From positions 1 through 64,000 of the IMG/VR virus record IMGVR_UViG_3300042373_001362: a stretch of DNA of 64,000 bases; one strand, written 5' to 3'. This document shows positions 21,665 through 64,000 of the stretch, piece after piece. Origin of the DNA: a virus. The stretch's first letter is position 1. Each line of letters begins with the position of its first letter. The notes under the pieces were generated by a model. That model ran no database searches, was not told the DNA's origin, and saw only the letters and a program-made list of their open reading frames with translations. The translations under genes and the position numbers were made by a program.

Positions 21665-21673
21665 TGCTAGTAT
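21665..21673 (+). promoter_or_regulatory. Extended -10 box of the glycosyltransferase
   Basis: TGCTAGTAT has the TGn extension plus a -10-like TAGTAT (21668-21673) that ends 7 nt before the ATG at 21681. No Shine-Dalgarno is present, so a leaderless transcript is likely. The same TAGTAT box serves the gene at 3343. Confidence 0.55.
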
Positions 21674-21680
21674 TAGCTGC

Positions 21681-22751: not shown

Positions 22752-22955
22752 CGGACATACTGCGTGATTTAGTTTCACTTTTAGATTCATAAAGCAACCG
22801 CATTGTTTGCACTGCTTCGTTACTTTTGTTAATTCAGGGCAGGCTTTACAAATAGAAAAACGTTCACGTTGTAATGCAGTTGATGCAAACTCGGTGTCAG
22901 ACTTTAAAAAGTCAGTAGGACTAGATTTCTGGTTTTTCCCAATTTCTTCACGCAT
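22737..22955 (-). CDS. Small zinc-ribbon protein
   Basis: The 72-aa protein has four clustered cysteines (SICKACPE and KQCKQCGCF) plus a terminal VCPLGKW, forming a zinc-ribbon-like module. Proteins of this kind (RERFSICKACPE to CPLGKW) recur beside fibre genes in diverse phages. Their function is not known to me. It is the last gene of the long leftward run; its 3' end overlaps the glycosyltransferase. No strong ribosome-binding site was found, and it starts ten bases after the preceding stop, so coupling is likely. Confidence 0.75.
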   Translation of the reverse strand: MREEIGKNQKSSPTDFLKSDTEFASTALQRERFSICKACPELTKVTKQCKQCGCFMNLKVKLNHAVCPLGKW

Positions 22956-22964
22956 GTTTGAACG

Positions 22965-32134: not shown

Positions 32135-33792
32135 GGGTTTACAAAATTACCATTATCAAGAATTTCGTCAAAATTCATAGTCGGATTTTGTTTAGCTCTA
32201 GCGTAAGCAGCTTCGCGGCCAGTAACCACAATAACAGAATTGCATTTTGCATTAAATTCTATAAATCCTCTTGCAGCAGCTCGAGTTAAAAAGTCAATCG
32301 TAAGTCCTGTCCTTAATGCCAAACTTGTACTTGGTTTGGTTCTGCTACACAGCGTTCCTTCTCTTGGAGTACGTGGCGGTAACTCTACAATTGGCGTAAG
32401 TTTTGGAAACTCAATAAGTTTTATTAGTTCTTTCGGATACTCAGTCAATGTTATGTCGCATGAAGCCCTGCTTATTGCCCCAGTTGAACTTCTGTACACA
32501 GATGTAACGCTAAAGTCAGCTATGACAAACAGTGAACCGCTACCCGAGTCTTTGTTAAATGGGTATCTAACGGGTTCTTGTAAGAGTTTGTCAAAACCCA
32601 TAAACACAACAGGGAAAGGGCTTGAGGCCATTTGCCTAAGTGTTTTCAAATCGTTATCTACACTTGTTGTTATTACACCGTTGTCAAGCGCCCTATCAAG
32701 ACTTCCCTCAGCGTTTGGTGCAACTAAAAAGCTAAACGAAACACTCATTAGCTTGTAAGACTTCCAATCAACCATCGGCCTATTTGCAGCGCGGTCAATT
32801 GGCGACCATTCAGAACCAATGCTTGTATAAGAAATTTGGTTTGGTCTATGAAGAAACTCGTATGTGAGCTGAGGCTGTCCAGAAGTTGTTGTCTGTACAA
32901 GTTTTGGCGCTTGGGAAGCAGAAATAGTTACAGAGCCAGCATTAACTGTTCGACTTAAAGCAGGTGAGGCGACAGTTACCGCTATGTTTTGACTTCTTGG
33001 TGTTTGCCTGGCAATTCTTGCACTTGGCATAATTAATGAATTTGCTGCTCTTGTTGAAAGTGCAGCAGCTGAATTTGCATTTACAAGAGCAATTGCCTCA
33101 GCTCTTGTGTTCCCTCTGGCTATTAGTTCATCAATTTTAGCAAGCCTAATTGATTCTGCAACGTTAGCCATTAAAGATTCGTTGCTTTGACCAGATGTGT
33201 CTCTTGTAAATAAACTGTCAATCAAATATTGACTGTCGGTAAACCCAAAAGTTTCTAAATTTCCAAATGTATAAAATCTATTGTCAAACGGGTGATACCA
33301 ATATGCAGGAATAATTAGGTTGCCGTTATCATCGTATGTGTTTGTGTACGTTTGAGGGCTTTCAATCCAAACCTGAATATTATTGTAAGAATATGGATTT
33401 GTTGACGCAGGAAGAGATGCAGAAACAGGGTATAGCTTTGTTCTGCTTGTTGCAACAAAAAGCTTTGTTCCATAGTACTTATGTGTATAAACACTAAACC
33501 TGTCGGGGTAGTACCTGCGGGTTGGTTTTATGCCTATTTCTGTACGCGGTTCGTATCTTGTTCTTTCGGCGGGAACGTTTTCATCTCCAGGCATATATTG
33601 CTTGTACGCAGTGAGGGCAGGAAGAGGAAGCCAGTATTCAATTTCATTAATTCTTAAATCGGTGCCATTTAAGATGCGTTTGTATAGATGAAAAATTGGA
33701 TACCCAGGGTACACAACACCAGGACCGGGTTGAGTTTTTCTGACTTCTTTGTAGTAATAGGTTTCTTGAATTGGCTGAGGAGATATAGACAT
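32131..33792 (-). CDS. Tail/baseplate structural protein near the hub
   Basis: The 553-aa protein lies between the tape measure and hub genes, where tube-initiator or LysM-type adaptor proteins are found. The N-terminal 190 residues are Tyr- and Pro-rich, then a helical part rich in Ala (ANVAESIRLAKIDELIARG and onward). A beta region follows (YEFLHRPNQISYTSIGSEW, MSVSFSFLV, FSVTSVYRSSTGAISRAS) that resembles phage tail-tube-adaptor domains. It overlaps neighbours at both ends (ATGA and one base). I cannot name the family with certainty. Confidence 0.65.
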   Translation of the reverse strand: MSISPQPIQETYYYKEVRKTQPGPGVVYPGYPIFHLYKRILNGTDLRINEIEYWLPLPALTAYKQYMPGDENVPAERTRYEPRTEIGIKPTRRYYPDRFSVYTHKYYGTKLFVATSRTKLYPVSASLPASTNPYSYNNIQVWIESPQTYTNTYDDNGNLIIPAYWYHPFDNRFYTFGNLETFGFTDSQYLIDSLFTRDTSGQSNESLMANVAESIRLAKIDELIARGNTRAEAIALVNANSAAALSTRAANSLIMPSARIARQTPRSQNIAVTVASPALSRTVNAGSVTISASQAPKLVQTTTSGQPQLTYEFLHRPNQISYTSIGSEWSPIDRAANRPMVDWKSYKLMSVSFSFLVAPNAEGSLDRALDNGVITTSVDNDLKTLRQMASSPFPVVFMGFDKLLQEPVRYPFNKDSGSGSLFVIADFSVTSVYRSSTGAISRASCDITLTEYPKELIKLIEFPKLTPIVELPPRTPREGTLCSRTKPSTSLALRTGLTIDFLTRAAARGFIEFNAKCNSVIVVTGREAAYARAKQNPTMNFDEILDNGNFVNP

Positions 33793-36700
33793 TAGATTCT
33801 CTCTCTTATTCTCTGCTCAGTAGTCTTTATCTTTGCCATTACCATGTTTGCTATCTCTTCAGGGTTGTTTTGTCCACCGTTTATATGGAAAGTAAACGAA
33901 TTTCCTCCTGATGTAACAGTAGCCTGAGTTGCTACACCCATTTGGTTAGAAGCTGGAGTCAATGTGTCGCCAAGTGCGCCTGGCCCTGGAACTGCATGAA
34001 GATGTCTACCCGCTCCACTTCCATGGAATTCGGCAAACCCACCAGCATTACGTGTTGCCACGGCGTAGGAACCAAGGTTTTGACCAACAAGGTCGATTGC
34101 CCTACCCGTTACATGGTCAGAGTTGAGTGAACCAAGACCATATGTTCTATACGAAGAGGTGATTGACCTCTTCCCAGGAATAGAGCTGTTAATAGCCTTG
34201 TGCCTATCCATTGTTTGGCTAAGTCGTGAAGAAGTGGTATCACCGACAACGCCACCACGAGGGGTTGTCGTGTCCGTCTGCATTATTTCTTTCATTGCTT
34301 CTTTTGACCACCACTCAGGTTTGGCTGCTTCTGGACCAAAAGCGGTACTCATATCTCTACTGAATTTTTCAACGGCCTCTTTAAACGTTGTTGATGCTGT
34401 TTTCATTTCTTTTGCAACAGCGTTTGTTTGGTCAGTATCTTGAGCACGAACTATAAGGCCAGCGTTTGTAACCCCATAATTAGCGAACTGTTGATTGAGA
34501 AGCATTCCCTGATAGTGTGCTTTGCTCTTGGCTCCTTTAGAGGTGTACAATTTCTTTGCTTCTGCGTCCGTCATGTTTGCAAACGGGTCCGTTATTTGGA
34601 AAATTCCACTTTCAACGTCGCTTAGGAATCTTTCTCTATTTTCAGCACTCATTTTAGAAATTGCTTCGTTCATCTTTGTAGTGTTGCCGTACCTCCCCAT
34701 TCCGCCAAGCATTCCCTGCACTTGAGCGCTAGCGTTGGATATGAGTCCTTTTTCGGTTTCTGTAGATGTTTTAGTGAGAGCCTCAGTAACTTCCGGTGTA
34801 AAAAAATCAGCTGGGTTAATATCAGCAAATGCGCCACCTGGCTTAAAAAGGTCACCAGGGTTAGCAAGTGTGCCTATCTGTCTCTGTTGGGCATAAAAAT
34901 CCGTTATCGGGTTGTCTGTCATTCCTATGGATGACTCTTGAAATGCCCTTAAAGCATTGAGTACAGATAATGTGTCTCCTCCACCCCTAATGGTGTCACC
35001 AAGCGCCGTACCTCTTTCGTCATATATTTCGGGCGCTTGAACTCTTTTTATTATTTCGTCAAAACCAGTAGCTATAGCAGAAAGCGATACGTCTATATTG
35101 GCCTCTTTCATTTCTTTTGCAGTTTTAACCATTGTTAAGCCAAGTTTTTCAACTATGTCAGAAGTCTTGAGTGTCGCGTCGTATAGGTCTACACCCATCT
35201 TCTTGGCAAGAACTTCTATTTCTGCTCCAGACTTTCCGCTCATGTCTTTGAGCAGCTCCATGCGTGCACCTTGCTGCTTGCTGATTGTGTCTGCTGCTTT
35301 AAGCCTTTCAGGAAGCTCTTTAGAAAGCTTTGTAAGTCCAGCGCCTTTGTCTTTGCTTATGGCTGCCATTTCTTCGGGCGTAATAATTCCTTTAAAGGCT
35401 GGGTCTTCGCTTATTTCTTTGAGTATCTTGTAATCTTTTTCTTGTTTTTTCTTTCTTTCACCTCTACCAAAAAGACCTTTTGTTAAACCTGTAATTCCTC
35501 CCACGACTCCACCGAGAACTGCACCAATACTTCCAAAGGTAGCTGCTGTTACTAAAGAGCCGATAGGTCCGCCGACGCTTCCCGCTATCGCGCCAGTCGC
35601 GACTCCAAGTCCTCCGCCTATTGCTGCGCCAGTACCCATGCCGCCCTTGGTTTGCTCCCATGTCGACTTTCCGTAGTCTCCGCTAAATCCTCGCTCTTTT
35701 AGTGCTTTGCTGAGGTTTCCGTAAGCTGCAGCAGTTTCTCCAGCTATCCCTTCATATGCTCCCGTGCGCCCAGTCATATCTACACCTGCAGCTGCATCTG
35801 CCTCTTGTCGAAGTACTTTGTCTTTGGCATTCATGATTTGACGAGTAGCTATGCCATCAAGAAATGAGCCCATCGCTTCTTTTGATTCTTTTGCTCTTTG
35901 TCTCATTCCTCCAGCAAAACCAGCAACTGCTCCAGTTATCGCACCAAGAGCTGCACCTACAGCAGTACCAATTCCTGGGGCAATCATTGTTCCAATTGCT
36001 GCACCCGCACCAGCACCGGTCATTGCTCCGCCTGCTGCCGTTCTAGAGTTAAGTGCTGCTCCACCGAGACCAACAGCAAGACCGGCTAGTGGGTTGAATT
36101 GACCAACCATTGCACCCATAGCCATTGCCCCCTGTGCTTCTGGTGCCATGTACTGAGACGCAACTCCCATGCCTAGGCCAACGCCCATTTTTGCACCCAT
36201 GCTTCTGTTAACTCCGCTAATACCTTTTTCATCGTTACCGAGAATTGCGGAACCAAGGGCGCTGTTTCTGCGTGAGCGTGAAGTGAGGCCTGCATATTTA
36301 ATTTTGTTTCTAAAGGTTTGACCTTTTGTGTCTACAAAACCTGTTTGTGCGTCATATCTAGCGCCCACCGTGGCTATTCTTTGACCTGTAACCGGGTCTA
36401 TCTTTCTACTTAAATTAAGCACTTCACCAGTAGATTCATCTAGTGTCGCAAATCGACGGCCAGTAATTTTTCCTCTAAATAAATCTTGACCAACTCCTGT
36501 ATTACCCTGTGCTTGTTGTCTTGAGCCATCGAATATGCGACCCAAAAAGCCTCTGCGGCTGTACGCGCCTTGCGTTCCTGGTCCGCCAGCACCAGGAGGA
36601 GCTGTTCCTGGACCTCCAGGACCGGGCATGCCACCGCCACCACCTGCGCCACCACCTGTTGCGCCGCTAGAAAATCTCGCTGCGTCAATTGGGGAACTAG

Positions 36701-38903
36701 GGCCTGCTGGAGTCGAGTCGATAAACTGATAACCTCGTTGGACCATCATTATTGGTCTAGTGCTGCTTCCGGCAGTTGGTGCAGGCGGGTAAGGTGCTCC
36801 ACCCTGCCCTGTTCTTCCAACTTCTCCGGTACCCGGAGTTTTTGCAACAAAAGCTCCCGGATTCCAGTACCGTGTACCGTCTTTTTTGGTTACCCAGTTA
36901 CCTCTACCGACAAGCTTTGCGTCAGGGTTAGGGTAATCCTTGCCCCAGGTAATTGGCCTTCCACCCGCATCAACTTCTCCGGTGCGTGTATCTCCAGGCC
37001 ACCTACGTCCTCCATACAAGGGACTACCGTGCGGGTCATAAAGTGGTTTACCCCCTCTTCTTACGGTAACGGGGACGCCTGGTGGAATAGCTGGCGGTCT
37101 TTGTGGGCCGATAGGAACAGGTCCGGTGGGTATTGGTCTTGGTGGAGTCCCCGGTGGTGTTCCTGGTGGTGTTCCAGGTGGCGTTCCCGGTGGCCCGCCC
37201 GGTCCACTTGGTCCTACTGGTGGACCTCCAGGCCCTCCTGGTCTTCCACCATTAACAATAACGCTTCTAGCTGTTACGGTCATCGTATTTACTGGTGCGC
37301 GCTCTCTGCCCAAAAAACCACCAGTATTGCCCTTCATCTGACGGCCCAATATCAAGAGAGCCATATACGCCATTGGCCCTCCGAGAATGCTGCTGAATTT
37401 AGAAAGCAAGCCGGTCATCATTCCAACAACCTCGGTAATACCTTTAATTACATCGCTCAAAAATGGAAGAGCATCAGAAAATGCTTTAGTAAAAACATCC
37501 TGCAATTTAAATAGTTCTGTTATTAAAGAACCGAGGTTGTTGCCTATTTCTACAAATGTTTCTTTGTTACTGATGGCTCCTTCATTAAAATCTTTGAAAG
37601 AATCCAAAAATCCAGATTTCAATGCTGAAAGAATTGGTTTGAATATTCCTTCTACGGCCCTTGCGCCTTCAATAAAAGGCCTAAGCTCTTCTCTGGAATT
37701 TTTAAACCATCTAGAAAACTTCTCCCATCCGCCAGCCATGTTTTTGAAAAATCCATCAGTCTTTGGAAGCCACTCGCGAATAAGCTTTACAAAGAAGTTT
37801 GACATTTTTTCGACTCCGCTTACTATTCCGTCGAAAAAAGAATCATTTCCAAAATCAGAAAGCGCCCCACTTACGCGAACAAGGTCTGTTCTAATAATCC
37901 TAAAAATCTTTTGCATTGCAACTTTGGCTGGCTCAAGAAACTGTTGACCAAAGTCTCCGAACTCAATTTTTAAAAGATTAAAAAATGATTTTGCCTGTCC
38001 AATGAGTGTCGAGTTAACAGCTTCAAATTGACCAGCAACTCCACCAGCCTTGGCGAGTTCGCCAGACATGATAAGTTCCTTCATCTGCTTCTTGCTGGTT
38101 ACTTTTGCATCTTTGAGCGCTTTTTCCATTTGTGGACCAAGCGCTTTTGCGGCTTGTTTAACGCTAGCCATGCTTGTCTTAGAGTTATTGAGAGCCTCAA
38201 TAAGAGCCCCAACTTTGTCAGCCGCCGCTGCTGGGTCTTGACCCGCTGCTCCAAAGTCCATGAGGTTCTTAATCATGGCTCCACTTTGTGCAATTTGCGA
38301 GGACTTCATCGACTTAGCCATTGATGCGTAAGCTTTGTTAAGTGCATCAACACCAAGGCCTGCCAGCTGAGCATCGGCTTGAAGGGTTCGCATTGCAACA
38401 CGAACCTGGTTTGTTCCTGTTATGTATTCCCCTGCTCCACCTGCCGTGTACGCATGCATTGCGGCTTGTTGTTCGCGAATAGCGGCAGTGGCAACTCCAA
38501 TTGCAATCGCTGCGCTTGCGGCCGCACCGGCCATGGCTGTCATGCCCCAGGAATAGGCTTTGTGCAACCACTTTCCTGCAATAAATAGAGCATGAATTCC
38601 CATTAAAGCAGCAGAAAATAAACCAAACTGAAGAAGCGTTGATTTAAGAGCAAGACCCAGGACTTTAGTTAGTCCTGTGCCCATCATTTTTATGCCCTTG
38701 TCTACAGAGTCGAACACTTTGCGTGTTGCCACGCTGGTGGTTACCAAGCTTTTTGATACAGTTGCTACCGACCTAGCACCACTGCTTAGCTTTTTTCCTT
38801 GCCTATCAAGCCTGTCGATGGCTTTGCTGAGAGTCCTGACTTCAAGAGCACCCTGAAGGGCACCCTTTACCTCAATATTGACTGTTGCTTCAGCCCTGGA
38901 CAC
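33792..38903 (-). CDS. Tape measure protein with M15 peptidase domain and RFSSG site
   Basis: The 1703-aa protein sets tail length and is normally ejected ahead of the DNA. Residues 1-530 are helical with hydrophobic stretches (about 78-140). A Pro/Gly linker (about 555-790) includes repeated PPGT units and RFSSG at 743-747 (36663-36677). Gly-zipper-like hydrophobic segments follow (about 950-1010 and 1085-1145), which may insert in membranes. Near the C-terminus an M15-like peptidase has SDHVTGRAIDL and RHLHAVPG (about 1570-1640), fit to open peptidoglycan during entry. The start is GTG with GAGG upstream. RFSSG matches the repeated motif in the protease polyprotein at 55537, so the tape measure may be cut by it. 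Confidence 0.9.
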   Translation of the reverse strand: MSRAEATVNIEVKGALQGALEVRTLSKAIDRLDRQGKKLSSGARSVATVSKSLVTTSVATRKVFDSVDKGIKMMGTGLTKVLGLALKSTLLQFGLFSAALMGIHALFIAGKWLHKAYSWGMTAMAGAAASAAIAIGVATAAIREQQAAMHAYTAGGAGEYITGTNQVRVAMRTLQADAQLAGLGVDALNKAYASMAKSMKSSQIAQSGAMIKNLMDFGAAGQDPAAAADKVGALIEALNNSKTSMASVKQAAKALGPQMEKALKDAKVTSKKQMKELIMSGELAKAGGVAGQFEAVNSTLIGQAKSFFNLLKIEFGDFGQQFLEPAKVAMQKIFRIIRTDLVRVSGALSDFGNDSFFDGIVSGVEKMSNFFVKLIREWLPKTDGFFKNMAGGWEKFSRWFKNSREELRPFIEGARAVEGIFKPILSALKSGFLDSFKDFNEGAISNKETFVEIGNNLGSLITELFKLQDVFTKAFSDALPFLSDVIKGITEVVGMMTGLLSKFSSILGGPMAYMALLILGRQMKGNTGGFLGRERAPVNTMTVTARSVIVNGGRPGGPGGPPVGPSGPGGPPGTPPGTPPGTPPGTPPRPIPTGPVPIGPQRPPAIPPGVPVTVRRGGKPLYDPHGSPLYGGRRWPGDTRTGEVDAGGRPITWGKDYPNPDAKLVGRGNWVTKKDGTRYWNPGAFVAKTPGTGEVGRTGQGGAPYPPAPTAGSSTRPIMMVQRGYQFIDSTPAGPSSPIDAARFSSGATGGGAGGGGGMPGPGGPGTAPPGAGGPGTQGAYSRRGFLGRIFDGSRQQAQGNTGVGQDLFRGKITGRRFATLDESTGEVLNLSRKIDPVTGQRIATVGARYDAQTGFVDTKGQTFRNKIKYAGLTSRSRRNSALGSAILGNDEKGISGVNRSMGAKMGVGLGMGVASQYMAPEAQGAMAMGAMVGQFNPLAGLAVGLGGAALNSRTAAGGAMTGAGAGAAIGTMIAPGIGTAVGAALGAITGAVAGFAGGMRQRAKESKEAMGSFLDGIATRQIMNAKDKVLRQEADAAAGVDMTGRTGAYEGIAGETAAAYGNLSKALKERGFSGDYGKSTWEQTKGGMGTGAAIGGGLGVATGAIAGSVGGPIGSLVTAATFGSIGAVLGGVVGGITGLTKGLFGRGERKKKQEKDYKILKEISEDPAFKGIITPEEMAAISKDKGAGLTKLSKELPERLKAADTISKQQGARMELLKDMSGKSGAEIEVLAKKMGVDLYDATLKTSDIVEKLGLTMVKTAKEMKEANIDVSLSAIATGFDEIIKRVQAPEIYDERGTALGDTIRGGGDTLSVLNALRAFQESSIGMTDNPITDFYAQQRQIGTLANPGDLFKPGGAFADINPADFFTPEVTEALTKTSTETEKGLISNASAQVQGMLGGMGRYGNTTKMNEAISKMSAENRERFLSDVESGIFQITDPFANMTDAEAKKLYTSKGAKSKAHYQGMLLNQQFANYGVTNAGLIVRAQDTDQTNAVAKEMKTASTTFKEAVEKFSRDMSTAFGPEAAKPEWWSKEAMKEIMQTDTTTPRGGVVGDTTSSRLSQTMDRHKAINSSIPGKRSITSSYRTYGLGSLNSDHVTGRAIDLVGQNLGSYAVATRNAGGFAEFHGSGAGRHLHAVPGPGALGDTLTPASNQMGVATQATVTSGGNSFTFHINGGQNNPEEIANMVMAKIKTTEQRIRERI
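36663..36677 (-). other. RFSSG motif in the tape measure protein
   Basis: These 15 bases encode Arg743-Phe-Ser-Ser-Gly747 of the tape measure protein, between SPIDAA and a Gly-rich run. It is the same five residues that recur in the protease polyprotein. The codons used (AGA TTT TCT AGC GGC) differ from those in the polyprotein copies. I infer a shared protease site. Confidence 0.6.
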
Positions 38904-53359: not shown

Positions 53360-55438
53360 ATGGCATGGAACGCTTCAACGAACAAGTCGCTGAATAATCA
53401 AGCACAAAAAGACATTGGACCTGGAGCACCAGTAGCCCAAAATCCTGGCTATGCAGGCAAGCCGTACAGGGACTCCTGGGATATTGAGCGTGCCTATAGA
53501 GAAGGCATGCAGAAGGTTACATGGGTGTCTAGGTGTATCGATGCCATTGCTGGAAACCAGGCAAGACTGCCGATAATACTCAGAAAAGACAACTCACCTA
53601 ATGGTGAAATTCTTTCAATCAGAGAGTCAAAAAAGACAAATCTTCTTAATATTCTAAACTCAAAGTCTAATGTTGGAGAAAACTCCTACATTTTTAGGTA
53701 CAGGCTTTCTGCTCAGCTGATGCTTGGTACTAGGGGTGCTTTTATTGAAAAAGTAAGAGGACGAGACGGCGGAATAATTGGCCTCAACCTATTACCTCCT
53801 CAGTCAACCTCCCCAATACCAGACCCTAAAAAGTTTGTTTCTGGCTACGAAGTTCAAATGCCCACAGGAAACAAGGTCTACCTGAAGCCAGAAGACGTTT
53901 GCTGGGTGAGAAGACCTCACCCAATCGACCCATACTTGTCACTGACCCCATTGGAGGCCTGTGGCGTTGCGATTGAAATAGAAAACCTGGCAAAGCTTTA
54001 CAACAGAAACTACCTATTAAACGACGGTAGACCGGGTGGTTTGCTTGTTCTTCGTGGAGAAATCGACGACGACGACAAAGAAGAATTGAGAAGCCGTTTC
54101 CGTGGAAACCTTTCACGCGCTGGATATACCTCTGTAATCGCTTCCGACGACGGTGTTGACTATGTTGACACTTCAGCAAACCCAAGAGACGCTGCGTACA
54201 TACAGATGCGGCAAATAACAAAGGAGGAAATCCTTGCTTCATTTGGTGTTCCAGAGTCGGTTATCGGTAATGCTGCTGGTAGAACTTTTAGCAACGCTTC
54301 GGAAGAAATTCGTGTCTTTTGGATGGAGACGATGCTTCCCCATTTGGAGATTCTTTCACGGGCTCTAGATGAACTAGATGAAGACAACTATGTTGACTTC
54401 AATGTTGACCAAGTGCCCATTTTGATGCTTTACGAGCAGGAGCGCCACCGCTACTTGATGGACGAATTCAACGCAGGTCTTATCAGCAATAACGAGTACA
54501 GAATAGGCTCAGGTCGCAAAGAAACAGAAAGCGACCTTGCTGACTCGCTCTTGGCTAATCCAAACCTTATTCCTATTGCAAATACGAAGAAGAAGATGGA
54601 AGAGCCTTCTCAAGCTCAGGTTCCAGGTGCACCAGGACAGCCTGGAATGCCCGGAATGCCCCCTGGGGCACCCGGAATGCCCCCAATGCCCGGAATGCCT
54701 CCAGCACCAGGACAACAGCCACCGCTCGACCCAAATACGATGGCTGGGGCAATGGCAGAAGTATCTGGAGCACAGCCAGGCGGAGAACTGGCGCAATCAC
54801 CAATTCCAGGAATGCCTCCAGGAATGATGACCGGAGCAGAGCCAGTACCTCCAGGTGCTACTTCTGCTGAGTCGCCAACCATAATGACAAAAGATGCTCT
54901 TGAAGCGATTTCCCAAAAGCAAGAAATCGAAAGATGGGAAGAGATACTTGTCAGAAGCATGGAAAGAGTCATGGAAAGACAGCAGCGTGTTGTTCTTGAG
55001 AAGTCAAGTGGAGCAAAAGCAAAGAAGGCTTTGTTTGCTGGAACCCTAGATATCCCATCCGTGCTTCACTCGGAGACATGGGACAGACAATTTGATGAAG
55101 ACATTAGGCCAGTAATTACAGCCATCGTCAAAGAGTCGTTGAAAGCATCTACATCAATCGAGAAAAAGTCCGCGAAAAGTTGGGAAGTAGAGTCTGACAT
55201 CATTGCTCAAGTCGATTCTCAAATGTTACGAATCAAGAGCTTGAACCAGGATTTGACAGAGGAAATTACTTCCCTCATGTTGTCTTCTCTGAATGTTTCT
55301 GACGAAGACCAGCGAGCTGGCGCTTTTAGGTCAAACATCGTGTCTTTGTATACAAATGTGTTGGCAAAACGGCTTCCGGAGATAGCTAGCGAGGAATCTA
55401 GGCGTGCCTGGACTTACGGAAAATTCATCGCTAGATAG
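53360..55438 (+). CDS. Portal protein with long C-terminal extension
   Basis: The 692-aa protein has the HK97-type portal core in residues 1-410: VTWVSRCIDAIAGNQARLPI, then PEDVCWVRRPHPIDPYLSLT, a YNRNYLLNDGRPGGLLVLRG clip-like region and the EILASFGVPESVIGNAAGRT segment. Residues about 415-510 are a Pro/Gly/Met-rich linker with repeats of the PGMPGMPP type. The last 180 residues form a charged helical domain, making the protein longer than usual. Twelve subunits form the DNA channel in the capsid. The extension may reach inside the head and contact internal proteins; the next gene's product has the same kind of linker. Confidence 0.93.
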   Translation: MAWNASTNKSLNNQAQKDIGPGAPVAQNPGYAGKPYRDSWDIERAYREGMQKVTWVSRCIDAIAGNQARLPIILRKDNSPNGEILSIRESKKTNLLNILNSKSNVGENSYIFRYRLSAQLMLGTRGAFIEKVRGRDGGIIGLNLLPPQSTSPIPDPKKFVSGYEVQMPTGNKVYLKPEDVCWVRRPHPIDPYLSLTPLEACGVAIEIENLAKLYNRNYLLNDGRPGGLLVLRGEIDDDDKEELRSRFRGNLSRAGYTSVIASDDGVDYVDTSANPRDAAYIQMRQITKEEILASFGVPESVIGNAAGRTFSNASEEIRVFWMETMLPHLEILSRALDELDEDNYVDFNVDQVPILMLYEQERHRYLMDEFNAGLISNNEYRIGSGRKETESDLADSLLANPNLIPIANTKKKMEEPSQAQVPGAPGQPGMPGMPPGAPGMPPMPGMPPAPGQQPPLDPNTMAGAMAEVSGAQPGGELAQSPIPGMPPGMMTGAEPVPPGATSAESPTIMTKDALEAISQKQEIERWEEILVRSMERVMERQQRVVLEKSSGAKAKKALFAGTLDIPSVLHSETWDRQFDEDIRPVITAIVKESLKASTSIEKKSAKSWEVESDIIAQVDSQMLRIKSLNQDLTEEITSLMLSSLNVSDEDQRAGAFRSNIVSLYTNVLAKRLPEIASEESRRAWTYGKFIAR

Positions 55439-55536: not shown

Positions 55537-58500
55537 ATGTCCTCTTCTAATAAAAAATCCGACATTCAGTACAAGGCTGCACCGCAAGGAATGGTGAATT
55601 TAGACGAGGCCCAAGGCATCGTCGAATGTTTTGTCGCTGGGATAGGCAACAAAGACTCTGTTGGTGACGTTTGCGCACCAGGAGCTTTCGGCAAGAGCCT
55701 TACCAGAAGGAAGCCACGAGTCGTATGGGGACACAACTGGAACGACCCCATTGGCAAGGTCATCGATATGTACGAGGTTCCACCCAACGACCCTCGTTTG
55801 CCAGCAAAGATGAAGGCTGCAGGAATTGGCGGTCTTTATGCTCGCGTTCAATTCAACCTTATGTCGGAAAAGGGTCGTGAGGCGTTTGCCAATGTTGCTT
55901 TCTTTGGTGAAGAGCAAGAGTGGTCTATTGGTTACAAAACAATCAATGCAAAATTTGACCCACAGATGCAAGCAAACATTCTTTATGAAGTAGAGCTTTA
56001 TGAGGTGTCTCCAGTTCTTCATGGTGCAAACCAGTTGACAGGAACAATTTCAGTAAAGTCGGAAGAGCAGCCATCTGGCGTTTCAGTAATTAATGCACCA
56101 AGCATTGATGGATTAAACGTAAATGAGCTTTCTTCTATTCTTGATGCACTCAAGGCTATTTCTTCTTCCGTTTCAGAAGACGAAAAGTGTGGACCAGGAA
56201 TGATGCCACAGGGAATGCCAGGAATGCCTTCTGGTGGACCAGGCATGCCTTCTGGGCCAAAGCCAATGCATACACATACCCCTGGTGCAGCACCAAGAGA
56301 AGTTGTTAAGCCACAAATTCCATCCATGCCAGAAAACCCAATGACCGTAGCGCTTCGCCGCGAACTTGCGACTCGCACCGGCTCAAACGTAATCGTGCGT
56401 TCAGCAAGCGACAGTGTCGTTGTTTTTGACAGAGTGCTGGCTGACGGAACGTCAAGCACATACAGACTGCCTTTCCATTATGCCGGTGGAGAGTTTATGT
56501 TTGGCAAACCAGAAAAAGTTCAGTCTCAAGCAAACTACGTCCAAGATTCTCCTTTGTCTGAAATCATGGTTGAAGCGCTTCTTTCTGGCCCCACTGCAGG
56601 CGCAGAAAAGTCTTTAATCTCTTTTGATGACCAAGAGTGGGGTGAAGGATTTGGGCAATCAATTCCGTCACAGCAAGTTGATGCTTCAACTTTGAATAGC
56701 GTTATCGCTAATCTTCAAAAAATAATCGAGCAGAAATCTGAATATGTTGTTCAAGTTGCTCCAGAACATGCTTTTGAAGTAAAGCAAGCGATAGACCCAA
56801 TTCTTGATTTCTACAAGGTTGACGCAACCATCAATGAAGATGGAATTGTTGTTAAGTCACTCAATGAAGACTTTTTGAACGCTCTTGACATCGCCACAAA
56901 AGGCGTATTACGCAGTCTTGGCAACCTTGCGGGTAGAGCAATAGACCGCCCTAATATTGGCAGAAACAGAAGAGACAGAACACCCAACCTTGCATCACGA
57001 GGCCCTGGAATTGGTTCACGAGGAGCGGTAGTAAGACTCCGTGATGGAAGCATGTGGGACCCAAAAAACGCACCGGATAGAAACCGTAATGGCATTGTAG
57101 GTGAAGGCCTCTTTGACAGTAGCGGAAGGTCGTTGGCACAGCCAGACCCAACACCAGAGGGGCCAGATTCTATCCGGGGAGCAAAGACACCAAAGTCACC
57201 GCAGACCCCTAAAAGGCAAGCAGCGGCTGCCGCAAAAAGAAACGCTACTGTAAAAAGAACTTCTGGGCAGCCCCAGAAAGCAAGGCAGCGTCTTTCTTCA
57301 GGCGGAATTGACCAAGAAGTTGACGATACACCAATGCTTGAGGAGAAGTTCAAGAAGGAAGTCTCTGGCTTTTTGTCTGAAATAGGAACAAACCGTAATG
57401 AGATAGAAAACATTCTTGACCTGTGGGAAAACAACGATGCAGACCATGACAAGTACATGGAAGAGCATGGAGCTGGTTCAAAAAACTTTGCTGAAAACGT
57501 GGCTTATGCAGCGTCAGCAATGTACGAAGACTACATCTCTGATGCGGGAGATAGGCAGGCTGACCGTCGTGCCGAGGGAGGGCGTTTCTCGTCTGGCGAG
57601 TGGACAAAAATTCCTGGTGTTGGCTATGAGATGGATGCCCCAGACATCGAAGGTGCTTACGAAATCCAAGAAGGCCTTGATGGGAAGTTCTATGTAGTTA
57701 GATTCTCTGATGGCAACCGCAACGGTGGTCAGGACATGACCGAATACGAACATGACAAGCCTTTCTCTACTCTTGCAGCAGCAAAGAAGTGGGCTGAAAA
57801 AGACTATGCACAAGCAGCGGACGAGTACATGCCAGATGAAGAAATGCCAGATGGTGATGCATCCGAAAGACTGAATAGCCTTGTTGCTCCAGAACTACCA
57901 AGCCTTGACGGCATGGACGAGTCTGAAGCAGATGAAGCCTTGCAAAACTTTAGTGACGAAATGTTCAGCTTTGTTAACGAGACAGAGAACATTGCCAGAG
58001 AAGTACTAGGTGACGACGAATACAACAAGAGATTTGGCGGAGCAGTGCCCCTCATTGAAGAGATTTCAAAGAGGCACGATGGAAGCATTGAGCAGCGTGA
58101 TATTGCTCTAGAAAATGCCTTTGACCAAGCAGAGAGGTTTAACAACTCTGTTAACGGTTCACTTGGCGGCGGAAGATTCTCTTCTGGTCAAATCGACTTC
58201 GACAAGATAGGTGAATCAGGTCTCAGGGAAATGCGCCATGTTGAGCGCAACCCTCTTAGATTTGATACACAGGCAGACAAAGATGCACGCGCTGCGTACG
58301 AACGGGTTGTAGCAAACTTTAGAGCAAACAACGGTTTCTTCCGTGAAGTGCCCATGTATGCAGGTGATAAAAAGTGGCACAGCGAAGACTGGTTCCGTGG
58401 CCGCGAGATGGCAGAAAACGTTGCCACCTTGCGATTTGGCGACCCGATTGACCAAATGCCGTTCTTCGATAAACCAGGAAAGCCATCAAAAAGAGAATTC

Positions 58501-61500
58501 TTCGAGAGAACTACGGCTGTTGATTACAAGTCCTGGTATATGACCAAAATTCCAGCCATGACGCAAGAGCTGGACAGAGTGCTTGCTTCCGACGCCTATT
58601 CAGATGAATACAAAGAAGCATTCCTAGAAGGAATGAGGACATTCTTCTACGTGAATAGGCCAAACCTTCAGTACGCTCCGAAAGATACACAGGCGCAGTA
58701 TGAAGAGTGGCTTCAGCGGTCAGGTCTCGGCTGGAAGGGTAGATACTCTACTTCTGGTCCAAAATTTGAAGACCTTGACGACACGGGAAGATTTTCTTCT
58801 GGTGCTAAAGACAAAAAAACAATCAATTCGTATGACAACTCGGAAGACCTTAAATCGGCGATGTTTAGCGCATTGTGGACAAACGGTTCACGTGACGAAA
58901 TAAACAACATGACAGCTGAAGAGCTGGCTGAAATACTAAGCGTAAATCCAGAATGGGTTGAACCTCTTCTTGAAGACACTAAAAAATACACAATCGAGGC
59001 AATGGACGATTATGATAAGTATTTATCTTCTCTTCCTGAGCCAACTGATGAAGAGATAAACCAGGAGTACCAAGAGTGGTTGTCGCGACAGGCTGGCGCA
59101 GACTACGCACAGGGCATGACTGTTAGAGACAAATTCCAGGACATGACCGACGAAGAGGCTGCAGACTACGCTGCATGGCTCGACGAAGAAACATGGAGAG
59201 ACAGAGACGATAGGTTCTCCTCGGGAGGAGGCAAAACACCTGAAGAGCGTCTTGAAGAATACAACAGAAGAAGTGCAGAAAAGAACGCAGTTCTTGAAAA
59301 GATGACTCCCGAAGAGCTAGAAGAATACGCTCGTGAATGGAATGAAAGTCATGTTGAAGATGTTCGTCTTTCATCTGGTTCAACAAATAGACCAAAGTCT
59401 ACAAAAACCGGAGAAGAATTTATTGGCCGTAGCTATGGTCTTCATGATTTCTTTGTCTACGACGAAGAAGACGATTTTGAAAACATCGACAAAGCTATTG
59501 TAGATTCGCTTCTTAAGAACGAAAGAATAACCCTTGATGACCTTTTGCTTGAAGTGCGAGGTATTAAGGACCCTGACCTTAGCGGAGAGGCATTGGTCCG
59601 CAGGCCGGACTATATGGGCGCAAACGCAAGGCGTGTTGCTGAAGCCGTTGCAAACAACACATCCGTTAATCCATCGCTGGCCAACCAGAAAGCCGGAAGA
59701 GAAGACATACTTCACTTTAGGTACAACGGTAAGCAGCGCTCCATATACCCAGAGACTTTTTCAACAAGCAAAAAGGGTGTTGGTTATTTTGTTGGATGGG
59801 ACGAAACCGCAGATAACGGCAACGGTGCATACAGAAGTTTCAATGTAGACAAAATAGAAGGTCTTATATCTAGCGCAATACCTCCACATGTAGACAGAGC
59901 AGCAAGGTATACCGATTATTCATGGAACATAACTGACTTCTCTGATGAAGATAATCAAAAAATTCTTGAACAGATGCGACGCACTAAAGAGTTCAGGGTT
60001 CTTGATGACGCGCAAGACCTGATAGACGATGAGGTGAGCGCAGGAGGCACAAGAGTTGCAGGCTCGACTCTTGATATTGCGGAAAAAGAAGCCCAAGCAG
60101 CTTTCCAGGATGCTCGCAATAGACAAATCGACAAGATGGTTGCCGACGGCAAAATTAAGCCGCTATCAAGAGATAGTAGATTCTCTTCAGGAATGGTTAA
60201 CGACGGTCTTCCAGACGGATACTGGGACACCGCAGACGACATGGCAGATTCTTATGGTGATAGAGAAGACTATACAGACGCAAGATTCTCCTCTGGTGGA
60301 ATGCCAAGCACCAAAGAGCAAGCAGACCTAATAGCGTTTGCTAGGTCAAAGCCTGGCACTTTTACAGACAGTGTTGTTTCTCAATTTGACAGAAATAGAA
60401 GACTGTCAGAAAAGCAATGGGACGCAATACGCAGAATGATGCGCGGCGCATCTGGTGGTAAGGCTGCTCCAAAAGCAGATAAACCAACTGCTCGTTTTTC
60501 TGGAAAGCGTCGTCAAATTGTAGATATTGCCGATATTGAAAAGTATGACTACCCAGAGCTTCCTGCAAAGATAAAGCCAACACCGGAACAAGACAGAGCT
60601 ATCGATGCGATGATGACTGGTGCAGACGTAAAGATTGGTGCTTTAGCAGCAACAGGAAAGACGACAACCGTTATCAACTTTGCTAACCGTCTTAAGGCTA
60701 AAGAGCCAGACGCAAGGGTTGTCTATCTCGTGTTTAACAGAAACGCAAAAGACGACGTAGAAAAGCGTGGAATGCCAGGAAACGTTTCTGTCTCAACGAT
60801 GGACGGAATTGCTTACAGAGCAATGGACGCTATCAACCCAGAAATGACCAAGAAGAGCTTTGACAAAAAAGAGGGCCACATAAAGCCAATCAACTCTTTC
60901 AAAGATAGGGCTAAGTATCTTGGTACAAAGGGAATGGTTTCCCAAGGCGAAGAATTGACCGATGTTGATGTTTATAGAATCGTAGCTAAAGCGATAGATG
61001 CCTATTCAATAAGCGACGACAAGGAAATTGGACCACAACACTTTACTGGCCCATACAACGGTTCATACAGGGTGACAGACACTTCATTGCTTCCTGAGTT
61101 GCTTAAGTATGCAAACAAGATGTGGGAAGACATGAATCTTCCTAGAGTCAATGGTGCCACCAGGAAAGACCAAAAAGGAATGCTTCCTGTAAACAACACA
61201 CATCTAACAAAGATGTGGGCATTGACAAATCCAGACATAAGCGAAATTGCTGAAGTCAATGTGGCAATGGTTGACGAAGCTCAAGACATGAACCCAGTTT
61301 TTGCTGGAATATTGAGGAACTCAAACCTTCAGAAAATCTACATTGGTGACACAAACCAGGCAATTAACGCATGGCGTGGAGCAGACGGAACAACGCTTGC
61401 AAATGTAGAAGCAACATACGACATGCCAATTACTGATTCGTTCAGATTCGGCAAGAACGTAGCGAACATGGGCAACAGATTCCTTTCGCTTCTCAATACA

Positions 61501-64000
61501 AAAGAGCGCATGACCGGAAGAAAGACAGACAAGTCTGGAAATCCTGTTGACGGAAGAATTGGACAAGTTGATAACCCAACAATGATTTTGACACGCTCTA
61601 ATGGCGGAGCTATCGCTGCAACCATGGAAGTGTTTGCAGATGGTGGAATTGTTTACGGAAGCCAAAACTTCAAGAGAGATTTGGAGAACTTCTTAAACAA
61701 CATCGAATGGATGCAGAATGCCCAAAAGGGCAAACCGTTCTATACAGACGTATATGGAAAGAAAGTATTTTCAGCTCCTGAGTTCAGTCAAGACCTTGAC
61801 GGAATTACAAACATTGCAGACTTCAATAAGGCTATTGAAAAGGGCGATGACAACAGACTGAACATGCTTTCTAAGCTGATGAACGAATACTCGCTTGAAG
61901 ACTTGAGAGAATCTCTCAATAACATCATTACAGACAAAAACAAGCTTCCAAAGAATCGTGACGAGTATGTCCACATCCAGACAGCCCACACATCAAAGGG
62001 CCTCGAATCACCACGAGTGAAGATTTGGTCAGACTTTAGAAAGCCAAAGAAACTTCCAAACGGTGAATGGGAATACCCGAACGAGCAGGAGATGAGGCTT
62101 TCCTATGTTGCTGTAACAAGAGCAGAGGAAGAACTTGACCTAGGTTCACTTAGTTGGATTCTTGACCACACAACAGAAGAGGACGGTATGCCGAATACTT
62201 TCTCTTCTGGAAGAAGCAAGGCAAGAGGCAACAGAGGTGATGGCAAGGGAAGACAAAAACCATGGTCGGCAGAAGATAGGCAAAGATTTGCGGACAGGGA
62301 CATTCTTCGTTCACAAACACGCCCAGGAAAGCGTCGTCCAGGTCCTTCAGCAAACGAATTCTCGTCTGGTGCTGAATTTGATTTCACTCCAGAAGAGCTC
62401 AATAGGTGGCAAAAAGCTAGCGAACATGCCAGCGCGTATGGCGATTGGGAAAATCTTCCAGAAAACAGAAAAAACGGATATCTTCGTAAATTCAACGGAG
62501 ATGAAAATCTTGCTCGCGAGCAATTTAACGTGGAAAGAGATTTGGCAGACTTTGCTGCAGATGCACAATTTGACAAAACAGATTCACGATTCTCTTCTGG
62601 AGGCCGCTTCGCAACACCACTGGATGCACCAGAGGGCTGGGAAATGCCAGAAATTGGTGATGACGGCGAAATAAAGAATGGACCGCTTAAGGGTTACTAT
62701 GTTCGTGGCTTCGGGGACGATTACGTACGAGGAAGAAAATACGTAAGCTATCGTGGTGCAGACTACAGTAGTACTGATGAGCACAAAAATAACTTAGTTG
62801 ATTGGGGTGATTACGAAGCGGGATACACCCTCGACAGAAACATAGGCTCTGACGAGGACATTAGGAGCATTTCTGACTCTTCCGAGCAAGAAGAAATGGC
62901 GCAGTATGGCGACGAAGGTTTGTACTATGGCAATAGTTCACGCGGGCGATACGACCCTCAAAATGATTATGAAACTCCAGTAACCGACGACTCCCATTCA
63001 CCAGAAAACGGTGCAGACCACATCGGTAAAGCCGTATCCGTAACGGATGAAAATGGAAACAAATTCTACGGTGTAGTTGTTAGAGGTTGGGAACCGGAAT
63101 ACGAAGAAGACTTAGATGTTGATGAGGATGGGTGGGCAACCCCGAGCATGAACATACAAGACGGTGGCATGGTAGTTCTCGCTACTCATGATGCTGACGG
63201 CAAAAAACTTGATAAACCAGTAGTTGTTGAGGCAAGTTTTGGTCTTGAAAATGAATACGCCCTCGTATCAAATGTTGAGAGAGGTGGAGACGACTACGAA
63301 GGGCCAAAGGTCAATGTATCAAAAGGCCGTGTAAGTGAAGAAACCCTTGACGAAGCCAAAAAGCTTTATGAAGAACTGGACCCATATAGAAATGGTAAAG
63401 CCGAGGAGTTCAGGCGTCAAGGAGCCTTGATAGATAGAGCATGGAGAATGCCGGGAGGCGAAAAAGAGCGCAGGGAAAAAGCTGCCGAAGAAGCTTACAG
63501 AAGAAGCCCTGAAGGAATACAAGAGCAAAGAGAAAAGCTAGAAGCATCCATATCGGCTATAGAAGACAAGATAAGAAGCGCGGAGTCTTCTCGTGAATCT
63601 CTCATGGAGAGGCTGAACGATGTTTCTGAAAGTGGAGACAATGTCCTTGCTTCAAAAATGGAAGAAATATTAAGAGACAGAGAGGGAGCGGTACGACTCC
63701 TCCAAGAAAGACTTGAAGAAGCAAAAGCTGAACTAGATGCTTTTAATGGCGAAGGAAACAGGCTTTCTTCTGGAAGATTTGCGCCTGATGGACAATCGGG
63801 TTCAAGGCTTCAAAGAAGACTTTCTTCTGGCGATGTTTTTGGCCCACCACCAGGACAGTCGGCAAGGTATGACCGCAAGAAGCAAGTCGAGGCAACGATG
63901 GGTGCATTCCATTCTGACCCAGGCAAGGCTGTTGTGTCGAGCGACACCGAAGGCTTATTGGGTAAAATCCCTTCCGGTAAGAACTCCCATATCCTTAACG
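55537..64000 (+). CDS. Giant prohead-protease polyprotein with [F/L]SSG linkers (3' end outside window)
   Basis: The frame opens at ATG 55537 (AAGGAG upstream) and stays open to the edge: at least 2821 residues. Residues 1-175 are an HK97-type prohead serine protease, with His66 in VVWGHNWNDPIGK, Ser130 in WSIGYK and the YEVSPVLHGANQL strand. A Pro/Gly/Met linker follows (221-250). From 585 on, segments are separated by [F/L]SSG motifs at 585, 683, 880, 1085, 1226, 1277, 1548, 1583, 2221, 2274, 2351, 2742 and 2761 (first residue of each five). Segment 1281-1548 holds a WYL-like domain (about 1391-1445); 1587-2221 holds a complete SF1 helicase. The 2610-2740 part is coiled coil. Codons of the motifs differ, so the amino acids are conserved, not the DNA. 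Probably the protease cuts at these sites. Confidence 0.9.
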   Translation, partial: MSSSNKKSDIQYKAAPQGMVNLDEAQGIVECFVAGIGNKDSVGDVCAPGAFGKSLTRRKPRVVWGHNWNDPIGKVIDMYEVPPNDPRLPAKMKAAGIGGLYARVQFNLMSEKGREAFANVAFFGEEQEWSIGYKTINAKFDPQMQANILYEVELYEVSPVLHGANQLTGTISVKSEEQPSGVSVINAPSIDGLNVNELSSILDALKAISSSVSEDEKCGPGMMPQGMPGMPSGGPGMPSGPKPMHTHTPGAAPREVVKPQIPSMPENPMTVALRRELATRTGSNVIVRSASDSVVVFDRVLADGTSSTYRLPFHYAGGEFMFGKPEKVQSQANYVQDSPLSEIMVEALLSGPTAGAEKSLISFDDQEWGEGFGQSIPSQQVDASTLNSVIANLQKIIEQKSEYVVQVAPEHAFEVKQAIDPILDFYKVDATINEDGIVVKSLNEDFLNALDIATKGVLRSLGNLAGRAIDRPNIGRNRRDRTPNLASRGPGIGSRGAVVRLRDGSMWDPKNAPDRNRNGIVGEGLFDSSGRSLAQPDPTPEGPDSIRGAKTPKSPQTPKRQAAAAAKRNATVKRTSGQPQKARQRLSSGGIDQEVDDTPMLEEKFKKEVSGFLSEIGTNRNEIENILDLWENNDADHDKYMEEHGAGSKNFAENVAYAASAMYEDYISDAGDRQADRRAEGGRFSSGEWTKIPGVGYEMDAPDIEGAYEIQEGLDGKFYVVRFSDGNRNGGQDMTEYEHDKPFSTLAAAKKWAEKDYAQAADEYMPDEEMPDGDASERLNSLVAPELPSLDGMDESEADEALQNFSDEMFSFVNETENIAREVLGDDEYNKRFGGAVPLIEEISKRHDGSIEQRDIALENAFDQAERFNNSVNGSLGGGRFSSGQIDFDKIGESGLREMRHVERNPLRFDTQADKDARAAYERVVANFRANNGFFREVPMYAGDKKWHSEDWFRGREMAENVATLRFGDPIDQMPFFDKPGKPSKREFFERTTAVDYKSWYMTKIPAMTQELDRVLASDAYSDEYKEAFLEGMRTFFYVNRPNLQYAPKDTQAQYEEWLQRSGLGWKGRYSTSGPKFEDLDDTGRFSSGAKDKKTINSYDNSEDLKSAMFSALWTNGSRDEINNMTAEELAEILSVNPEWVEPLLEDTKKYTIEAMDDYDKYLSSLPEPTDEEINQEYQEWLSRQAGADYAQGMTVRDKFQDMTDEEAADYAAWLDEETWRDRDDRFSSGGGKTPEERLEEYNRRSAEKNAVLEKMTPEELEEYAREWNESHVEDVRLSSGSTNRPKSTKTGEEFIGRSYGLHDFFVYDEEDDFENIDKAIVDSLLKNERITLDDLLLEVRGIKDPDLSGEALVRRPDYMGANARRVAEAVANNTSVNPSLANQKAGREDILHFRYNGKQRSIYPETFSTSKKGVGYFVGWDETADNGNGAYRSFNVDKIEGLISSAIPPHVDRAARYTDYSWNITDFSDEDNQKILEQMRRTKEFRVLDDAQDLIDDEVSAGGTRVAGSTLDIAEKEAQAAFQDARNRQIDKMVADGKIKPLSRDSRFSSGMVNDGLPDGYWDTADDMADSYGDREDYTDARFSSGGMPSTKEQADLIAFARSKPGTFTDSVVSQFDRNRRLSEKQWDAIRRMMRGASGGKAAPKADKPTARFSGKRRQIVDIADIEKYDYPELPAKIKPTPEQDRAIDAMMTGADVKIGALAATGKTTTVINFANRLKAKEPDARVVYLVFNRNAKDDVEKRGMPGNVSVSTMDGIAYRAMDAINPEMTKKSFDKKEGHIKPINSFKDRAKYLGTKGMVSQGEELTDVDVYRIVAKAIDAYSISDDKEIGPQHFTGPYNGSYRVTDTSLLPELLKYANKMWEDMNLPRVNGATRKDQKGMLPVNNTHLTKMWALTNPDISEIAEVNVAMVDEAQDMNPVFAGILRNSNLQKIYIGDTNQAINAWRGADGTTLANVEATYDMPITDSFRFGKNVANMGNRFLSLLNTKERMTGRKTDKSGNPVDGRIGQVDNPTMILTRSNGGAIAATMEVFADGGIVYGSQNFKRDLENFLNNIEWMQNAQKGKPFYTDVYGKKVFSAPEFSQDLDGITNIADFNKAIEKGDDNRLNMLSKLMNEYSLEDLRESLNNIITDKNKLPKNRDEYVHIQTAHTSKGLESPRVKIWSDFRKPKKLPNGEWEYPNEQEMRLSYVAVTRAEEELDLGSLSWILDHTTEEDGMPNTFSSGRSKARGNRGDGKGRQKPWSAEDRQRFADRDILRSQTRPGKRRPGPSANEFSSGAEFDFTPEELNRWQKASEHASAYGDWENLPENRKNGYLRKFNGDENLAREQFNVERDLADFAADAQFDKTDSRFSSGGRFATPLDAPEGWEMPEIGDDGEIKNGPLKGYYVRGFGDDYVRGRKYVSYRGADYSSTDEHKNNLVDWGDYEAGYTLDRNIGSDEDIRSISDSSEQEEMAQYGDEGLYYGNSSRGRYDPQNDYETPVTDDSHSPENGADHIGKAVSVTDENGNKFYGVVVRGWEPEYEEDLDVDEDGWATPSMNIQDGGMVVLATHDADGKKLDKPVVVEASFGLENEYALVSNVERGGDDYEGPKVNVSKGRVSEETLDEAKKLYEELDPYRNGKAEEFRRQGALIDRAWRMPGGEKERREKAAEEAYRRSPEGIQEQREKLEASISAIEDKIRSAESSRESLMERLNDVSESGDNVLASKMEEILRDREGAVRLLQERLEEAKAELDAFNGEGNRLSSGRFAPDGQSGSRLQRRLSSGDVFGPPPGQSARYDRKKQVEATMGAFHSDPGKAVVSSDTEGLLGKIPSGKNSHILN
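59701..59871 (+). other. WYL-like domain inside the polyprotein
   Basis: Polyprotein residues about 1391-1445 read ILHFRYNGKQRSIYPETF, then GVGYFVGWDE and YRSFNVDKIEGL. This follows the WYL domain pattern (strand with R-Y-x-G-x-x-R, Pro, then Y-V-G-W-D and R-x-F-x-x-D-K-I). WYL domains bind ligands or single-stranded DNA in regulators and in defence proteins. Here the fragment sits alone between motifs at 1277 and 1548. Confidence 0.6.
60568..62199 (+). other. UvrD-like SF1 helicase inside the polyprotein
   Basis: All SF1 helicase motifs are present in order: Q-motif PTPEQDRAID, motif I ALAATGKTTT (Lys1708), motif II VDEAQDMNP (Asp1913, Glu1914), III GDTNQAINAWRG, IV SFRFGKNV, V VHIQTAHTSKGLESP, VI LSYVAVTRAEEEL. 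With complete catalytic residues it should be an active 3'-5' DNA translocase once released. It is bounded by [F/L]SSG motifs at 1583 and 2221, with a degenerate RFSG at 1653. Confidence 0.9.

Follow-up and report, generated by a model that had tools for sequence, protein, structure and literature searches.

The window analysed here comprises the first 64,000 nucleotides of the virus record IMGVR_UViG_3300042373_001362 (148,355 bases in full) and ends inside a giant gene on the plus strand. The product of this gene, polyprotein 1, starts with an S78 prohead protease domain and carries along its length many copies of a short peptide motif, [F/L]SSG, most of them preceded by Arg. The gene begins with the ATG at position 55537 and has no stop before the window edge (55537–64000, 2821 codons); its stop codon ends at position 67374 of the record, which gives a protein of 3945 amino acids. 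The first-pass annotation of this DNA had described a frame of at least 2821 codons and advised reading the remainder of the gene; the frame is as described, and the remainder is included here. Because relatives L022 and L031 (relatives are referred to by L or G numbers) have single frames of 4172 and 4736 amino acids, an assembly or frame artefact is ruled out. The gene of the portal protein (53360–55438, plus strand; PF04860, E 1.4e-48), which is devoid of the motif, lies directly upstream, and the major capsid gene (85888–87255) is found about 18.5 kilobases after the end of the polyprotein 1 gene. The S78-bearing gene is thus situated between the portal and major capsid genes, as expected of an S78 prohead protease.

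The protease domain occupies residues 1–188 (55537–56100, plus strand) and matches the S78 profile PF04586 with 42.3 bits (cut-off 21) and an E-value of 1.1e-10, and PHROGs family phrog_80, head maturation protease, with an E-value of 6e-28. The capsid maturation protease that the first-pass annotation had placed at the N-terminus is therefore confirmed. His66 and Ser130, the presumed catalytic pair of this family, do not vary in an alignment of 81 rows (the domain and 80 relatives), judged on columns in which over 70 rows are filled. A UvrD-like SF1 helicase module, also recognized from the letters alone, spans residues 1585–2222 (60289–62202, plus strand; PF00580, E 2e-11; PF13361, E 1e-9; phrog_1967, E 1.7e-68). 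The C-terminus is formed by ArdcN and MPTase-PolyVal domains (Pfam; E 2e-44 for the latter), and PHROGs agree with Pfam on the protease, the helicase and the antirestriction protein. Two other proposed domains fare less well. The WYL-like region (residues 1346–1450; 59572–59886, plus strand) gives no Pfam match to WYL in polyprotein 1 itself at an E-value of 0.05, and its name is indirect, through a stretch of L060 with 40% identity in which Pfam finds WYL at E 5e-4 and 20.4 bits, below the cut-off of 21.8; the coiled coil has weak Pfam matches (E 0.02–0.03). In a Pfam scan of ten segments, four gave, besides the named domains, no match or very weak matches below the cut-off.

Several disparate domains (S78, UvrD helicase, ArdcN, MPTase-PolyVal) are thus joined in one chain, encoded among virion genes. 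Both properties are those of polyvalent proteins, described by Iyer et al. 2017 (PMC5512222) as very large proteins of unrelated domains, ArdC-N and MPTase included, whose genes lie among virion genes. Furthermore, a protease and the motif sites are found in the same chain, as in a self-processing polyprotein.

Polyprotein 1 contains 15 copies of [F/L]SSG, 12 of them in the form R[F/L]SSG; the window holds 13 and 11 of these, respectively, exactly as first counted, all on the plus strand. The first copy, RLSSG (57289–57303), ends the module bearing the protease. It is followed by RFSSG at 57583–57597, 58174–58188, 58789–58803 and 59212–59226, RLSSG at 59365–59379, RFSSG at 60178–60192 and 60283–60297, two copies of FSSG with Thr (62200–62211) or Glu (62359–62370) before the core, RFSSG at 62587–62601, and RLSSG at 63760–63774 and 63817–63831. 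The thirteenth copy stands at the start of module C, which extends past the window. In 2000 composition shuffles of the protein, [F/L]SSG occurs 0.165 times on average (maximum 3) and R[F/L]SSG 0.0085 times (maximum 1), which rules out chance as the origin of the repeats. Synonymous codons vary between the copies. Hence it is the peptide and not the DNA that is conserved, as had been claimed, and the copies are neither DNA-level repeats nor recombination junctions.

The motif is not restricted to polyprotein 1. A second giant open reading frame (ORF), at 69034–79506 of the record and so outside the window, encodes protein 2 (3490 amino acids), which has no protease domain but contains nine [F/L]SSG, including seven R[F/L]SSG, where shuffles give 0.19 and 0.011 on average. 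Its Pfam domains are an RNase_T exonuclease and a weak match to RelA_SpoT (E 0.02). The RelA/SpoT-like region lies at the C-terminus and is related to phage head-morphogenesis families. Inspection by eye also finds a zincin-like stretch, HEIAH, within the first 1443 amino acids, and a GNAT-like stretch. The third carrier is the tape measure protein (33792–38903, minus strand), named by eye from its sequence and gene context, which has the motif twice: an LSSG near the N-terminus (38778–38789, minus strand, in the context KKLSSG) and an RFSSG in a central Pro/Gly-rich linker (36663–36677, minus strand). When the 148-kb record is scanned in all six frames, counting frames of 60 codons or more, R[F/L]SSG turns up in these three proteins alone. 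Eight further sites have [F/L]SSG lacking the Arg, some of them in frames that are perhaps not genes.

Two further genes of the record lie close to this set. Between the two giant genes (67466–69016, outside the window) is a gene for an acidic protein of 516 amino acids, whose C-terminal stretch (DGSFPIKN...AKDKEAAKRHI) resembles, by eye, the C-terminal end of the protease-bearing protein in Gordonia phage DalanDe (L088, 14635–19536). A small gene at 83851–84570 (G000) seems, by eye and by position, to be a giant protein in other lineages and so a third expandable slot; its giant counterparts are found in L070 (G007; 17490–24110 of the joined stretch, 2206 amino acids, with several GLxSST) and L075 (19415–23002, 1195 amino acids).

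A scan of IMG/VR with the protease domain gave 518 relatives, and the analysis covered the best 80 of these. The 80 loci correspond to 39 different protease-domain sequences; many are near-duplicates, so that a number of loci does not stand for as many events. Downstream of the protease, [F/L]SSG is present at least once in 61 of the 80, or in 61 of 70 when the ten loci that read less than 600 amino acids, none of which has the motif, are set aside. The nine longer proteins without [F/L]SSG complete the 19 that lack it; five (L064, L066, L070, L075 and L077) have another repeat, GLRS[S/T/G] or GLxSST, and in four no repeat was found. The first-pass annotation had asked for the motif downstream of related prohead proteases and regarded homologues without it as damaging; the expectation holds for most of the longer relatives and, with a different peptide, for five more. 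A short site that recurs between modules is thus kept in relatives, the four proteins without a repeat being exceptions. Complete or long proteins of the [F/L]SSG type typically contain 8 to 20 copies. Pfam finds S78 in all six relatives' proteins scanned. Among their cargo, a sigma-70 region 4 is present in L060 (E 1.4e-8) and L075 (E 6e-10), which suggests modules for transcription takeover. In a collection of prokaryote genomes, the protease has three relatives, all perhaps stray virus contigs: an 80% match in L135 (JASLZV010000001.1), a contig binned with a Phycisphaerae genome whose link to that host is uncertain, a match over 38 residues in a bin assigned to Acidimicrobiia, and one of 27% in a bin assigned to Prevotellaceae.

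The four-residue core is strict, and the residue before it depends on the phage. [F/L/M]SSG occurs 195 times in 17 proteins of 12 genomes, and variants at single core positions are rare: after [F/L/M]SS, Gly is found 195 times and the next commonest residue 8 times. The core is preceded by Arg in the group of the window phage, by Lys in L043, and by Gly in L039 (10/10), L045 (8/8) and L062 (21/24). The mutual information between genome and preceding residue is 0.754 (171 sites, 11 genomes), compared to a maximum of 0.398 in 5000 shuffles. The same version recurs in different genes of one phage: in L062, three genes and the tape measure contain GLSSG; L075 carries a GLRSST-type motif in two giant genes and the tape measure (GMRSST, GLRSST); and L070 has GLxSST in three giant genes and the tape measure (GLASSS, GLASST), and RLASST in a further ORF. 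The version of the motif (R[F/L]SSG, KLSSG, GLSSG or GLxSS[T]) therefore appears to be phage-specific and common to unrelated proteins of one phage, as a tendency.

The tape measure was followed through 17 records, 13 of which gave matches; 12 of these were read together with the window protein, and G017 (132 residues) was left out. Twelve of the 13 tape measures, the window phage included (11 of 12 relatives), carry the version of their own phage at least once. The set includes the near-copy pairs WIN/G006, G004/G013 and G005/G016, so about ten are distinct. The N-terminal sites can be aligned across the [F/L]SSG group, and the central sites lie in linkers of varying length. This distribution bears on a reading in which the motif is a docking or sorting peptide that binds a common phage component, such as the capsid interior, the portal or the tail channel, and loads or orders cargo and tape measure, much as a cargo-loading peptide does. 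Lineage-specific versions in cargo and tape measure would then require just a common binding partner and no enzyme, and the arrangement seen in 10 of the 13 tape measures, one site near the N-terminus and another further in, suits such a role. A partner in the portal or tail channel would explain the tape measure, whereas one in the capsid interior would leave it unexplained. Docking also asks for less than is found, since the motifs stand at junctions of mobile modules, and the proteins found are led by a protease (although the search itself used the protease). We regard docking as possible but doubtful.

The mobility of the modules is seen when the giant proteins are cut at their motifs. Many of the pieces are homologous over most of their length, and their order and number vary between relatives. 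The helicase piece is the ninth in the window phage, the twelfth in L022, the fourth in L086 and L039, and the thirteenth in L043; comparison of motif-cut pieces did not reveal it in L015, L030, L060 or L081. The ArdC piece is the last in the window phage, internal in L043, L060, L081 and L086, and a separate gene in L062. The exonuclease piece belongs to protein 2 in the window phage and L022 and to protein 1 in L031. Moreover, ends of BLAST matches between the uncut proteins coincide with motifs well above the chance level: for 68 of 477, a motif is no more than 5 residues away in each of the two aligned proteins, and rotated motif positions give a mean of 1.0 and a maximum of 6. Because the shared motif could itself lengthen the matches, the test was repeated with the motif masked, and 35 of 445 ends still coincide (null mean 0.77, maximum 6). 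These ends come from overlapping protein pairs and are not independent, and the majority do not lie at a motif. As far as these comparisons go, the segments between motifs are mobile units that have been lost, reordered or moved between genes.

In an AlphaFold model of residues 2750–3945 (12-row alignment), the mean predicted local distance difference test (pLDDT) score is 60, and 383 of the 1196 residues score under 50. The ArdC module in the model matches the solved structure of R388 ArdC (PDB id: 6i89) with an E-value of 9.5e-18 and 37% identity; R388 ArdC is a free protein, whereas here it is one module of a giant. The model contains four sites, three [F/L]SSG and one RLASG (model residues 13, 536, 569 and 817, with RLASG at 536), all in stretches with pLDDT below 50 (1–44, 532–574 and 794–820) that adjoin better-predicted regions. 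This suggests that the motif sites occupy low-confidence stretches between modules, and the placement is merely suggestive because so many residues of the model score under 50. A model of residues 575–1600, built on five rows, was too poor to be used (mean pLDDT of 43.7).

Such positions could also be those of a flexible linker that has spread with the modules and is kept for spacing, solubility or junction recombination, unread by any factor. The residues before the core, which lean to Gly, Arg, Ser and Asp, would suit a linker, as would the low-confidence surroundings in this one model. The core, however, shows few near-misses; the differing codons exclude DNA-level recombination as the cause, and each phage tends to have its own version in unrelated genes. 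With so strict a core and with versions specific to the phage, a passive linker is unlikely, and we give this explanation very little weight.

Since the same peptide bounds mobile modules, has a strict core, and is phage-specific and common to unrelated genes, a factor that reads it and acts in trans is needed; action in trans is also required because the motif is present in the protease-free protein 2 and in the tape measure. The S78 domain is the obvious candidate, as the relatives were found by it, Pfam detects it in all six proteins scanned, and four of these lack the zincin domain. The reader could be another peptidase: the zincin MPTase-PolyVal, which belongs to the ArdC module, the first module of protein 2 with its HExxH, or a protease of the host. 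Iyer and colleagues (PMC5512222) proposed zincin-like peptidases for the processing of polyvalent proteins, and both candidates exist in the window phage, MPTase-PolyVal as a strong match in polyprotein 1 and HEIAH in protein 2 by eye. However, MPTase-PolyVal is missing from the polyproteins of L039, L045, L062 and L075, all of which retain repeated motifs; this absence refers to the same protein, as L062 has an ArdC module in a neighbouring gene and the rest of the L039, L045 and L075 records was not searched. In addition, R388 ArdC is matched over its length, so the zincin is explicable as part of an antirestriction protein. The zincin as sole processor was downgraded for the four motif-bearing polyproteins without it, and processing by any of these other peptidases is improbable.

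We therefore favour, as the more probable interpretation though by no means a secure one, a modular virion cargo polyprotein of polyvalent type, in which the motifs would be processing sites read by its own S78 protease. The sequences themselves display the domain content, the motif enrichment, the lineage-specific shared motif and the shuffling of modules with motifs at their boundaries; that the motifs are cut, by which enzyme and when, and that the products are packaged and delivered, is inferred. The S78 protease would recognize [R/K/G][L/F/M]SSG, or GLRS[S/T/G] or GLxSST in sister lineages, and would be freed by a cut at the first motif. The cargo modules of polyprotein 1 would then be separated in cis, and protein 2, and probably the tape measure too, would be cut in trans. 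The proteins so released, namely the ArdC antirestriction protein, the UvrD-like helicase, the exonuclease, the WYL-like module and numerous unknown ones, would travel in the virion and be delivered together with the DNA. Processing might take place inside the prohead, while the virion matures or following ejection. The first-pass annotation had proposed a self-processing polyprotein whose cargo is enclosed in the prohead. Its protease-led modular cargo with motifs at module boundaries is retained here, with cleavage as putative as before; a cut limited to the prohead would be hard to reconcile with the tape measure sites, and the scope of the proposal was too narrow, as the motif is also found in the protease-free protein 2 and the tape measure.

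Several observations weigh against this interpretation. The tape measure is a tail protein and should be out of reach of a protease that acts only within the prohead; its sites would fit better with cutting at head–tail joining or after ejection into the cell. One of the 13 tape measures, that of L077, lacks the version of its phage. The major capsid protein, the classical substrate, does not contain the full motif: the window phage has QLSSRE, and the capsid proteins of [F/L]SSG phages have [Q/H]L[S/T]SRE, that of L075 GLGSQ and that of L077 GLERG, and those of L068 and L070 hold nothing resembling the motif. A tie to the classical maturation cut is therefore unproven. In L067, L068, L074 and L082 the protease is present and k-mer enrichment found no convincing repeated motif. 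The residue before the core is a preference and not a rule (Lys in 9 of 14 sites of L043; mixed in L060, L081 and L086), and on a tree of 32 protease domains it clusters, with 10 changes compared to 18.8 in shuffles. Because this residue largely follows the protease tree, shared ancestry accounts for part of the pattern of motif versions. Motif flanks are mildly more disordered than random positions, with no excess in L075; on a residue disorder scale, 7 of 8 sets give mild support, 2 to 93 of 2000 random placements being as high. In the set used for the tree and for disorder, several rows labelled motif-free are truncated proteins, which inflates that group. Finally, four cultured phages, Gordonia DalanDe and GMA6, Brevibacterium Cantare and Streptomyces Gilgamesh, have an S78 domain at about 38–42% identity adjoining the major capsid gene, and the 17 large proteins read from them contain isolated single matches but no repeated SSG- or RSS-type motif.

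In DalanDe, the S78 domain is inside a protein of 1633 amino acids, whereas Gilgamesh has a separate protein of 4624 amino acids upstream. The latter, gene 48 (L090, 764–14638), is a hypothetical protein encoded between the portal and protease genes and has no repeated SSG motif. In a collection of 50,697 deposited phage records, none of the relatives of the protease attains 60% identity, and two cargo stretches (1443 and 556 amino acids) have no match at an E-value of 1e-5. Because of these absences and the lack of a repeat in the four cultured phages, the motif-bearing clade appears to be uncultured.

The HK97 maturation protease, also of the S78 family, is a small single-purpose enzyme, whereas the S78 domain here is fused to thousands of residues of cargo. 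The HK97 capsid protein is cut at K103/S104 (PMC10275583). By alignment this cut falls in K-S-L-G, and a cut before SSG (S-x-G) in the phages described here might possibly resemble it.

In T4, phiKZ and SPN3US, the prohead protease has several head proteins as substrates, ejected ones included, and cuts them at a short shared motif (PMC10052503, PMC5694885). The site is A-X-E in SPN3US, with 14 sites in nine proteins, and S-X-E in phiKZ, and 13 of the 14 SPN3US cuts remove N-terminal propeptides from separate proteins (same sources). The likeness to the window phage lies in one short motif that is found in several proteins, here two giants and the tape measure, and that differs between related phages; a virion location of the two giants is inferred. 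In contrast to these systems, the protease here heads the chain, the sites stand between modules, and [L/F/M]SSG is unrelated in sequence to [A/S]-X-E.

Polyvalent proteins are thought to enter the host with the DNA, and their processing by embedded peptidases was proposed and likened to that of RNA-virus polyproteins (PMC5512222, available passages). Multi-domain cargo with processing by an embedded peptidase was thus already in print, and the novelty claimed in the first-pass annotation is reduced to that extent. The assemblin-like peptidase of polyvalent proteins is described there as always C-terminal, whereas the S78 domain of polyprotein 1 is N-terminal, which we read as a difference in architecture. 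The same passages do not mention a repeated site between modules or a site common with the tape measure. In open-licence PubMed Central papers no mention of RFSSG was found, matches to LSSG and phage are unrelated by title, and among the matches listed none describes, by title, a protease-led phage polyprotein or this motif. Polyvalent proteins and maturation by prohead proteases are known already; the literature searched did not yield a prohead protease that heads a chain of cargo with its putative site between the modules, or a site in common with the tape measure.

A wider proposal, which we judge evenly balanced between right and wrong, is that a large uncultured clade possesses a virion-wide proteolytic code, made up of one S78 protease and one lineage-specific peptide that serves both the giants, two or more in number, and the tape measure. 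Modules would be gained, lost, reordered and moved by carrying the peptide at their ends, and protease and code would drift together. Such a code would resemble that of RNA-virus polyproteins, with the difference that it belongs to a DNA phage and extends over separate genes, one of them for a tail protein. If the sites in the tape measure are cut, head and tail proteins would share one protease, an arrangement not found described in the literature searched. If the motif is a cut site, the clade would also offer natural protease–motif pairs of differing specificity. The motif would then allow ideas on the packing and release of giant virion proteins to be tested, and it would provide a simple rule, readable from sequence, by which to pick out the single proteins that such phages may carry into cells, many of which belong to no known family.

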